25,818 bases of DNA from a virus. The notes beneath the pieces were generated by a model. That model had not been told where the DNA came from and did not search any database. It saw only the letters and a program-made list of their open reading frames with translations. Where the stretch lies: IMG/VR virus record IMGVR_UViG_3300030118_000594, positions 1-25,818 of that record; one strand, 5' to 3'. This document shows positions 22,378 to 25,802 of this stretch, in pieces (the first letter of the stretch is position 1; every line of letters begins with the position of its first letter). A program made the translations under genes and the position numbers.

Positions 22378-22881
22378 ATGTTTGACCCTGTTAGTATAAG
22401 TGCAAGTCTAGCGGTCGCTAGTACGGCTTTTAACGGCATTAAAAAGGCATTTCATGCAGGTCGTGAGCTTGAATCTATGTCGCAAGACCTATCTAGGTGG
22501 ATGGGTGCTGTTTCTGATATTGATAACGCACACAAGTCAGCCAAAAACCCCTCATTACTAAAAAAGGTTATGAATGGCAAAACTATTGAACAAGAAGCCA
22601 TTGAAGCATTTAGTGCTAAACAGGCGTTAGAACAACAAAGGAATGATTTACGCACCTATATCCAATACAGCTATGGACAGTCAAAATGGAACGAATTAAT
22701 CCGCATGGAGGGGGAAATCCGTAATAGAAGAAAAAAGGAGGTTTACGATAAACAGCAATTTAGAGAAAAGGTTATAACGTATGTCGCTTTGGCAGTGGTT
22801 TTGGTTGTTGGTGTTGGTGCTTTGGTGCTTTTTAGTTTTACCCTTATGGGCGTTGACAGAGGGTGGTGGCTATCAAACTAG
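22378..22881 (+). CDS. Membrane-anchored conserved marine-phage protein
   Basis: This 167-aa protein begins FDPVSISASLAVASTAFNGIKKAFHAGRELESM, then SRWMGAVSDIDNAHKSAKNP and YGQSKWNELIRMEGEIRNRRKK. I recognise this family in many cyanophage- and SAR11-phage-like genomes; no function is established. The middle is helical and basic. A single TM helix (YVALAVVLVVGVGALVLFSF, about 134-153) lies near the end. The TM part is encoded by the same DNA, in another frame, as the hydrophobic start of the next gene (22781). A spanin-like or lysis-timing role is possible by position. Confidence 0.8.
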   Translation: MFDPVSISASLAVASTAFNGIKKAFHAGRELESMSQDLSRWMGAVSDIDNAHKSAKNPSLLKKVMNGKTIEQEAIEAFSAKQALEQQRNDLRTYIQYSYGQSKWNELIRMEGEIRNRRKKEVYDKQQFREKVITYVALAVVLVVGVGALVLFSFTLMGVDRGWWLSN

Positions 22882-23263
22882 AGATAAATGCGTCAGAAAA
22901 GAAGGTGGACAAGAAACCTTTGAGTGGGTTTGTACCAATGGATATGTGATATATTTAGCACAGTCGGACAATATAAAGAACTGTTTTACCTGTTTTCTCA
23001 AAAAATTTAGTGACTGGACATGGGAACAAGAAATCAGAAAAGGAATGAGAGAAGACCCAAAATATATAACCTGTAGGAGATATAAAAGAGTGAAAGCAAA
23101 GAATGGTCAACAAGTCTGTTTATATAAAGGTGCAAACGATACATATACGCTAGTGGTTGAAGGGAGTTGCCCAGTGCAGTATTCTTGTCGTTATGACCCA
23201 CATGGTAAACCACCCAATATTGACCAAGTTGTAGACTCACTAAATGATAGTTTTAAAAAATGA
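22781..23263 (+). CDS. Cysteine-rich exported or membrane-anchored protein, start nested in the previous gene
   Basis: ATG 22781 lies inside the end of the preceding gene (101-bp overlap, +1 frame) with AAAAGG (22766-22771) upstream. The 160-aa product starts with a strongly hydrophobic segment (SLWQWFWLLVLVLWCFLVLPLWA), lacking a basic n-region, which could be a signal sequence with cleavage after A24 or an anchor. The rest is polar with about nine cysteines in pairs (NCFTC, ITC, QVC, SCPVQYSC), as in disulphide-bonded periplasmic proteins. No lipobox is convincing. Function unknown; the lysis neighbourhood suggests the periplasm or envelope as the site of action. Confidence 0.77.
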   Translation: MSLWQWFWLLVLVLWCFLVLPLWALTEGGGYQTRDKCVRKEGGQETFEWVCTNGYVIYLAQSDNIKNCFTCFLKKFSDWTWEQEIRKGMREDPKYITCRRYKRVKAKNGQQVCLYKGANDTYTLVVEGSCPVQYSCRYDPHGKPPNIDQVVDSLNDSFKK

Positions 23264-23442
23264 CATTGTTATTCGTGCTTGTTATTCTCGAAGGAACACA
23301 AATATATGACGAGTCTATAGAATATGGTAGTATTGATAAGTGCAACTGGTATGCAGAAAAGATTAATTTCTATAATGAAAGACAAACAAGGAATACGTTT
23401 TCAGCATATTGCAAACCAAAAGTAGTAACGAGAAAAGAATGA
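23260..23442 (+). CDS. Small exported two-cysteine protein
   Basis: This 60-aa protein overlaps the preceding stop (ATGA). It opens with a short hydrophobic run (TLLFVLVILEG, 2-12) and has a C-x3-A-x2-I-N motif (CNWYAEKIN) with a second cysteine further on, followed by K-P-K-V. The 2506 product has the same plan, so both may belong to one family of small phage proteins exported to the periplasm. Such proteins are common near lysis or early genes in marine phages, and none has a known function. Confidence 0.65.
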   Translation: MTLLFVLVILEGTQIYDESIEYGSIDKCNWYAEKINFYNERQTRNTFSAYCKPKVVTRKE

Positions 23443-23768
23443 CACAGAAGAAACTAGAAAAAGATTCAAAATATAACGAAATGGACGCTAACAGGGATGG
23501 TGTTATTTCCGATATTGAAATTGATAGTTGGCAACAGACCGAAGAAGTCAAAAGAATAAACAGAAAGCAAAAACACCAGAGAAACATGGCGTGGGTTTCT
23601 CTAGGGTCTATGTTGGTATTCACAATAATAATGTTTACGCCCTTAATACCAGACTCACGAATAAAATTACTCACAGACCTATCAAACCTATTTTATCTGG
23701 CACAAGCAGGGATAGTTGGTGCTTTTATGGGGTTTTCGGTCTTAGATAGAACAGGGATGAAGAAATGA
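23439..23768 (+). CDS. EF-hand protein with two membrane helices (holin candidate)
   Basis: ATG 23439 overlaps the upstream stop (ATGA); the product is 109 aa. Residues 16-27, DANRDGVISDIE, form a complete EF-hand calcium loop: D16, N18, D20 and S24 at positions 1, 3, 5 and 9, glycine at 6, isoleucine at 8 and glutamate at 12. A basic linker (37-48) leads to two TM helices (about 50-67 and 82-102). I recognise relatives in other marine phages. Two TM helices in a lysis block suggest a holin or antiholin, and the EF-hand could make it respond to calcium. That function is an inference. Confidence 0.78.
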   Translation: MTQKKLEKDSKYNEMDANRDGVISDIEIDSWQQTEEVKRINRKQKHQRNMAWVSLGSMLVFTIIMFTPLIPDSRIKLLTDLSNLFYLAQAGIVGAFMGFSVLDRTGMKK

Positions 23769-24226
23769 TAACATTACTTGGTAGCCTATTAGGATTTGGC
23801 ACAAGCTTTCTACCAGAAGTCCTAAATTATTTCAAAAGAGGACAGGAACAAAAGCACGAATTGCAAAGAATGAAAATGGAAATAGAACTAATGGCTAAAA
23901 GGTCAGAGTTCAAAATTCAAGAACTGGACAAAGAAGCTGAAATAAAAGAAGCAGAGGGGTTATATAAACATGATAGCGTGGATGCAGGGGGTTTTATCAA
24001 CGCATTACGAGGTAGTGTGCGTCCTGTTATCACTTATGCTTTTTTTGGCTTATTCGTTGCCATCAAAGTGACTGCTTTGATTAGCCTTATGAGTTTACCA
24101 GAAATGCAACTAAACATGGCTCTTAGTATGATTTGGGATGACCAGACCGCAGGTTTATTTTCGGCTATTATGGCATTTTGGTTTGGAAATAGGGCAGTTA
24201 GCAAGTATTATAGAGCAAAAGGGTGA
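23765..24226 (+). CDS. Holin of the three-TM (GTA-type) family
   Basis: This 153-aa protein has an N-terminal hydrophobic segment (ITLLGSLLGFGTSFLPEVLNYF, 2-23), a long charged coiled coil (about 28-68, EQKHELQRMKMEIELMAKRSEF), then the family-like GFINALRGSVRPVITYAFFGLFVAIKV and a last helix near IMAFWFGNRAVSKYY. This order fits the 3TM holin family used for gene-transfer-agent and phage release. It would open the inner membrane to let the endolysin out. It follows the EF-hand protein with an ATGA overlap and precedes the endolysin by 94 bp. Confidence 0.82.
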   Translation: MITLLGSLLGFGTSFLPEVLNYFKRGQEQKHELQRMKMEIELMAKRSEFKIQELDKEAEIKEAEGLYKHDSVDAGGFINALRGSVRPVITYAFFGLFVAIKVTALISLMSLPEMQLNMALSMIWDDQTAGLFSAIMAFWFGNRAVSKYYRAKG

Positions 24227-24320: not shown

Positions 24321-24779
24321 ATGGCTTTCACATTATCACAAAGAAGTTTAGGACGATTAGACGGAGTAAATAATAAATTACACTCAGTAGTTACTACAGC
24401 TATAGGTCTTTCAAATGTCGATTTCGGGGTCACTTGTGGACTCAGAACTGAAAAAGAGCAAGAGGATTTAGTGGCAAGAGGTGCGTCACAAACTATGAAA
24501 AGCAAACACCTTACAGGAGATGCGGTAGACGTTGTGGCGTATATTGGCTCACGCATTTCTTGGGAACTAAACCTGTATGACGATATTGCGGATGCGTTCA
24601 AAGAAGCATCAGTAAGAGAAGGAGTCGGAATAAGATGGGGTGCTTCATGGCATATCCCAGACTTAAGAGATTGGGAGGGTACGGCTGAAGAAGCAATGAA
24701 CTCTTATATAGACCTAAGACGTTCTCAATCGCGTAGAGCGTTCATTGATGCCCCTCATTTTGAGCTTGTAAGTGATTGA
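24321..24779 (+). CDS. Endolysin, M15-type peptidase (VanY / L-Ala-D-Glu peptidase-like)
   Basis: This 152-aa enzyme has the M15 zinc-peptidase layout: DFGVTCGLRTEKEQEDLVARG (about 34-54), SKHLTGDAVDVV (61-72) giving the ligands H63 and D70 in the SxHxxGxAxD motif, and a terminal APHFEL with the third ligand H146. A glutamate for catalysis would be expected just before that; the region GIRWGASWHIPD and RRSQSRRAFIDAPHFE is available. It lacks a signal peptide, so it needs a holin to cross the inner membrane. It has no separate wall-binding domain, which is typical for Gram-negative hosts. The last codons overlap the start of the second 35-bp repeat. Confidence 0.9.
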   Translation: MAFTLSQRSLGRLDGVNNKLHSVVTTAIGLSNVDFGVTCGLRTEKEQEDLVARGASQTMKSKHLTGDAVDVVAYIGSRISWELNLYDDIADAFKEASVREGVGIRWGASWHIPDLRDWEGTAEEAMNSYIDLRRSQSRRAFIDAPHFELVSD

Positions 24780-25439: not shown

Positions 25440-25802
25440 TTAAGACCTTACAGGCACGTTTATTTCGATTATCTCTTTCACTTGGTCAAGACATTCAGTA
25501 ACCCCACCTTTAACAATAAAATGAGGTGTACCCATTGCTTTTGATTGTACCGCCCAAAGCTTTTGAGCATCAGACAGCCTACCTTTTTGTGTTTTCAACT
25601 CAATATAAAGCACCCTGCCCTCTGGATACTCAATAATAATATCTGGACAACCAGACTTCAAACCCATCTTTTTCATCTTTAAATGATAGCCAATAGACTT
25701 TTGACCTTCATTCGGTACATGGAAATGCCTGAAGTGATAGTATTTGCACAAGTAATTTAGGTAGTCATTGCAAGATATTTGTATGTCTGATTCTTTCGTC
25801 AT
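25440..25802 (-). CDS. VRR-NUC domain nuclease
   Basis: This 120-aa (or longer) protein is the only minus-strand gene. It shows the VRR-NUC order: KESDIQ with E4, HVPNEGQ (28-34), KMKKMGLKSGCPDIIIEYPEG with D54, YIELKTQKGRLSDAQ with E68, K70 and Q80, then MGTPHFIVKGG. D54, E68 and K70 form the PD-(D/E)XK site. Stand-alone VRR-NUC proteins cut branched or mismatched DNA. The frame has no stop upstream to the window edge and the ATG lacks a ribosome site, so the true start may lie beyond 25818. Orientation suggests early transcription, converging with the late genes. Confidence 0.87.
   Translation of the reverse strand: MTKESDIQISCNDYLNYLCKYYHFRHFHVPNEGQKSIGYHLKMKKMGLKSGCPDIIIEYPEGRVLYIELKTQKGRLSDAQKLWAVQSKAMGTPHFIVKGGVTECLDQVKEIIEINVPVRS

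Follow-up and report, generated by a model that had tools for sequence, protein, structure and literature searches.

The timing of phage lysis is known to respond to holin accumulation, to membrane energisation and, in T4, to superinfecting DNA. EF-hands also occur in phage lysis proteins, namely in endolysins such as the LysK-like enzymes, EFm1 and others. Among lysis membrane proteins, class II holins of the S21 type from phage phi21 have two transmembrane (TM) helices and an N-in, C-in topology, and in holin/antiholin pairs such as T/RI of T4 the time of lysis is governed by a signal from outside (PMC9636201). For T4-like pelagimyophages and methylophages it has been proposed that a curli pore serves as the lysis hole, and the authors describing phage Melnitz suggested that the CsgGF pore is a pinholin-like device; their paper mentions neither an EF-hand nor calcium (PMC9004378). 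The small protein considered here, EF-2TM, resembles class II holins in size, in its two helices, in a predicted N-in/C-in topology and in its place in lysis cassettes, but differs in carrying an EF-hand and in frequently having a separate 3TM holin alongside; no sequence relationship to them was found, and holin activity of EF-2TM is only putative. The likeness to T/RI is one of function only, in that hole formation would be modulated by the sensor domain of a membrane protein, whereas the proposed signal for EF-2TM is calcium and its sensor would be cytoplasmic. The endolysins likewise bear a calcium-binding loop in a phage lysis protein, but theirs sits in a soluble enzyme and that of EF-2TM in a membrane protein. 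Literature searches combining EF-hand with pelagiphage, marine phage lysis or holin found no description of an EF-2TM protein; the authors of the TP-84 study screened for EF-hands and found none.

The window, that is, the whole stretch of 25,818 nucleotides that was analysed, is a 25.8-kb virus contig with a GC content of 37%. Its terminase shares 56-58% identity with those of the pelagiphages HTVC111P, HTVC202P, HTVC026P and HTVC112P, so the host is likely a SAR11-type or similar marine bacterium. The EF-2TM gene occupies positions 23439-23768 (+), from its ATG to the end of the stop codon, and encodes 109 residues with the layout MTQKKLEKDSKYNEM-DANRDGVISDIE-IDSWQQTEEVKRINRKQKHQRN-TM1-PDSR-TM2-DRTGMKK, in which an N-terminal EF-hand loop is followed by a long helix running into TM1, a short turn, TM2 and a basic C tail. 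A 60-residue ORF without a family match lies directly upstream (23260-23442, +) and overlaps the EF-2TM start in an ATGA; another ATGA joins the EF-2TM stop to the start of a 3TM-holin-like ORF (23765-24226, +), which matches phrog_6637 at E 8.7e-27 and PF11351 at a sub-threshold E of 0.013. BLASTP of this 3TM protein against the holins of locus L144 and of CRP-810 gave no convincing match, so its holin label rests on the sub-threshold PF11351 hit and on gene place. An M15 peptidase endolysin follows (24321-24779, +; phrog_465 at E 2.1e-50, PF13539 above the cut-off), which bears out the lysis-region position claimed in the earlier note. Further upstream lies a phrog_32327-type protein with a C-terminal membrane helix (22378-22881, +), whose relatives are found near EF-2TM in 27 loci, including CRP-1 (gp58) and DC31 (00113). 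At 22781-23263 (+), a Cys-rich ORF with an N-terminal hydrophobic segment is conserved among the close relatives of the window, has no family match and looks like a secreted or periplasmic product. At the contig end a VRR-NUC domain nuclease is encoded on the opposite strand (25440-25802, -).

Relatives were collected in two IMG/VR scans, which supplied 63 loci and the top-ranked 80 among at least 587 candidates, the latter recognised by the TM2 pattern alone; the family thus counts at least 587 IMG/VR candidates, and the 96 distinct sequences used correspond to about 19 effective ones at 70% identity. Each of the 23 records searched holds exactly one copy. Carriers include many marine phages and some from freshwater and soil. 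Seventeen of 20 sampled members match phrog_27150, a PHROGs entry of unknown function that records neither an EF-hand nor a lysis role; gene 165 of phiM12 matches it end to end, and the window member only from residue 25 onward.

The loop DANRDGVISDIE, residues 16-27 (23484-23519, +), has every canonical EF-hand position filled (D1, N3, D5, G6, I8, S9, E12), as had been claimed, with D16 and E27 correctly numbered. Taken alone, the window protein scores sub-threshold against Pfam EF-hand_5 (14.3 bits, cut-off 25.9). A profile built from 60 members and run on PDB sequences, by comparison, matches calmodulin-type EF-hand proteins over residues 10-35, with a best E of 2.4e-5. The earlier note had asked whether the loop is conserved and had taken degeneracy as a refutation; it is not degenerate, an intact 12-residue loop being present in 95 of 96 distinct members (62 different loop sequences, L063 the sole exception), a count somewhat favoured by a query that carried the loop and by the ranking of matches by similarity to it. 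Less biased evidence comes from GenBank matches that start past the loop: it is present in CRP-1 (query residues 36-100) and CRP-345 (35-100), and absent from DLP6, DC33 and Manatee Spring phage. The PROSITE pattern PS00018 matches 94 of 96 members; among 1208 further ORFs from these loci it occurs once, and when N-termini are shuffled it turns up in 0.06%.

Constraint falls on the ligands themselves. In the family protein alignment, loop positions 1, 5, 6 and 12 rank with the columns that vary least, and pN/pS at the ligand codons (1, 3, 5, 6, 12) is 0.000 in the close and 0.085 in the wide set of sequences, compared with 0.47 and 0.55 at the remaining loop codons and 0.14 and 0.43 in the TM region; overall, codons outside the ligands give 0.14-0.65 versus 0.00-0.09 for the ligands. 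Such strong, position-specific constraint across very diverged relatives makes it likely that the loop is a real divalent-ion site. A lone EF-hand may be structural or bind magnesium, and E at position 12 is typical of calcium-selective loops. In weighted sequences E fills that position in 90% and D in 10% (D in two of 21 cluster representatives, L055 and L057), and the E of most members favours calcium over magnesium as the predicted ion.

Hydropathy supports the two membrane helices proposed earlier, TM1 at residues 50-70 (23586-23648, +), behind a K/R-rich segment, and TM2 at residues 78-102 (23670-23744, +), in which alignment reveals a conserved small-residue motif, FYxxxAG(I/V)VGA(F/Y)MG. 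Across the family, K+R counts average 4.0 in the 15 residues before TM1, 1.6 in the inter-helix loop and 2.4 in the C tail; by the positive-inside rule an N-in/C-in topology is therefore predicted, which would put the EF-hand in the cytoplasm. Two AlphaFold models (pLDDT 66 and 70) consist of a short helix, the loop, a long helix over residues 25-66 or 25-62 through TM1, and TM2; the EF-hand flanks, a short helix at 11-13 or 11-15 and the long helix from 25, are modelled at a pLDDT of only about 60-70. Foldseek searches with these low-confidence models against viral and PDB structures returned nothing at E up to 0.001.

In the window and its near relatives EF-2TM is followed by the 3TM-holin-like protein and the M15 endolysin, and other carriers present variations on this arrangement. 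In CRP-810 the gene precedes a holin-family protein and a GH108 endolysin; at L144, a PF11351 holin (E 1.2e-19) and a GH24 lysozyme; in CRP-9 and CRP-1, an M15 endolysin and a spanin-like lipoprotein; and in DC31, an Rz-like protein and then M15. At about 13 loci an Rz-like i-spanin (phrog_739) and an o-spanin (phrog_812) lie directly downstream. Altogether, a lysis gene was found within 2.5 kb of EF-2TM at 46 of the 84 loci without T4-type neighbours, a count for which the lysis-gene seeds were drawn from these same neighbourhoods. Family scans confirmed the seeds for M15, GH24, PF11351 and, at L097, the spanins, while GH108 has the backing of its GenBank annotation. Annotation or a reading of the sequence is what supports the remaining spanin seeds, the lysozyme and holin-like seeds of L118 and the amidase of L111. 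A tie of EF-2TM to lysis in many non-T4 carriers is well supported, its basis being the gene neighbourhood. The lysis role put forward in the earlier note is partly supported, in that the gene recurs in cassettes alongside 3TM holins, spanins and a range of endolysins, among them isolates where a search for other holin families found none; against a purely lytic reading stands its place between gp51 and a tape-measure gene in the T4-like carriers.

A second line of evidence is provided by loop-less 2TM proteins (MDRWKNRRRMAW...VVGAYIGF) that align to the EF-2TM core with an hhalign probability of 98.3 (E 1.2e-14). These phrog_22774-like proteins of unknown function share the homologous core and the same cassette place, but they have no EF-hand and a shorter inter-helix turn. 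M15, GH108 or spanin-type neighbours accompany 26 of the 36 inspected, usually in the order 2TM, Rz-like, endolysin. Since these cousins occupy the same place in lysis modules, the 2TM part is, by homology, a core whose tie to lysis does not depend on the EF-bearing set, and the EF-hand an addition to a lysis-cassette membrane protein. Mapped on a tree of the core, loop state requires about 3 changes, versus 18.8 with shuffled labels. In many of the loop-less cassettes a one-TM coiled-coil protein precedes the 2TM gene (L069, 4720-4986; L070, 4784-5017) and is a candidate further lysis protein. One of these records, Limnohabitans phage DC33 (L069, PQ492659.1), is a 39-kb circular genome with an endolysin and an Rz-like gene that GenBank taxonomy files under Inoviridae, a placement that looks wrong.

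Whether EF-2TM may be a holin depends on the carrier. Comparison with the holin families of Pfam, PHROGs and NCBIfam gave no convincing match. The class II arrangement, beside an endolysin in a lysis cassette, was found in CRP-9, CRP-1, DC31, CRP-810, the window and L144, and not in the T4-like carriers. A family scan for the PF11351 holin, positive for CRP-810 in the same run, found none in CRP-1, CRP-9, CRP-345, CRP-207 or DC31, and in CRP-1 EF-2TM (gp56) and the spanin-like gp54 are the only short proteins with two strong helices. The T4 holin family PF11031 was not detected in HTVC008M, Melnitz, phiM12, DLP6 or G001 (L038) in a scan with T4 as positive control; an earlier PF11031 run on 12 genomes had no positive control. 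As EF-2TM precedes a distinct 3TM holin or holin-like gene in the window, CRP-810 and L144 and none was found in CRP-1, one role as "the holin" does not fit all carriers; a holin in some and a co-holin or antiholin in others would fit.

The T4-like phages place the gene elsewhere. At about 30 loci the tail operon runs tube-like (gp19-like), gp26 (PF12322), gp51 (phrog_634), EF-2TM and tape-measure-like, an order shared by HTVC008M, Melnitz, phiM12 and DLP6 (the DLP6 protein being loop-less), and no lysis genes were found near EF-2TM in these roughly 30 loci. The Melnitz gene (locus tag 108) is annotated as hypothetical. T4 gp28, encoded at the comparable place before gp29, was considered as a counterpart and rejected, with no phmmer match at E up to 100 and no predicted TM helix. 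HTVC008M and Melnitz also encode an adenylate/guanylate cyclase on the other strand, a short way past EF-2TM and the tape-measure gene (L155, 7505-9340; L156, 7952-10003). A third group, L039-L054, carries EF-2TM away from both tail and lysis genes. Members in T4-like context share 76-83% identity with the window protein, from which it follows that the gene has moved between genomic contexts; in the core tree, which is weak and built from few columns, contexts are intermixed and supported branches force at least three context changes.

The loop, the ligand-level constraint, the 2TM core and the recurrent lysis neighbourhood are supported by the sequences. Combining them, it may be tentatively proposed, at somewhat less than an even chance, that EF-2TM belongs to phage lysis modules as a small membrane protein with two helices, whose functional cytoplasmic EF-hand serves as an added divalent-ion switch; calcium rather than magnesium as the ion, the topology, the pairing, the switching and the effect on lysis timing are the parts that we infer. 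Late in infection EF-2TM would collect in the inner membrane with its EF-hand empty, cytoplasmic calcium being low. The first membrane leak would admit calcium, which would fill the loop, and the single EF-hand of one chain could then pair with that of a neighbouring chain. The helices might rearrange through the small-residue TM2 motif and the 2TM assembly switch, releasing or promoting hole formation. The hole would be made by EF-2TM itself where no further holin is known, as in CRP-1, or alternatively, in the window, CRP-810 and L144, by the 3TM holin next to it. The earlier argument that calcium in seawater makes such sensing plausible holds insofar as high external calcium would help; it is not required, as freshwater Limnohabitans phage DC31 and Sinorhizobium phage phiM12 also keep an intact loop. 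It is conceivable, though less likely than not, that calcium-gated lysis regulators of this kind are widespread, with the first calcium leak acting through the EF-hand of a 2TM protein as a switch-like trigger of hole formation in Roseobacter phage CRP-1, T4-like pelagimyophages and methylophages alike.

The same lysis neighbourhoods and conservation data would also fit a lysis-cassette membrane protein whose EF-hand is structural, either always filled with calcium or magnesium or pinning the N-terminal helix or a partner, with no calcium sensing. The loop-less cousins do without the loop, so that the 2TM core works alone, and the D at position 12 in two of the 21 representatives tolerates magnesium. 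The prevailing E at that position, on the other hand, speaks for calcium selectivity, and near-absolute constraint on the ligands amid fast divergence is easier to understand in a functional switch, yet compatible with a structural site; a purely structural EF-hand is judged somewhat unlikely.

The conserved tail-operon order, together with the close identity of the window protein to members from T4-like context and the intermixing of both sites on the tree, would instead suit a tail, baseplate-hub or infection membrane protein, either an assembly factor or a virion protein entering the host membrane, for which the lysis adjacency is incidental. This is unlikely given that non-T4 members repeatedly keep company with several endolysin types, spanins and 3TM holins, as the loop-less cousins do, and that gp28 at the comparable place in T4 is unrelated and lacks a predicted TM helix. 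T4 lysis genes are scattered across the genome, so a missing lysis neighbour in T4-like carriers says little. Small 2TM proteins of some phages, T4 Imm for example, act on the host membrane in other ways, and the loci near neither tail nor lysis genes would accommodate such an action, be it superinfection exclusion or late calcium buffering or signalling; that endolysin, holin and spanin genes repeatedly lie beside EF-2TM renders it improbable.

EF-2TM is a candidate membrane lysis protein for those phages of SAR11, OM43 and Roseobacter that gave no match to the holin families searched here. Both burst size and the rate at which phages turn over marine bacteria depend on when lysis occurs, and a calcium input, of which no mention was found in the searchable literature, would, if true, represent a new kind of lysis-timing signal.
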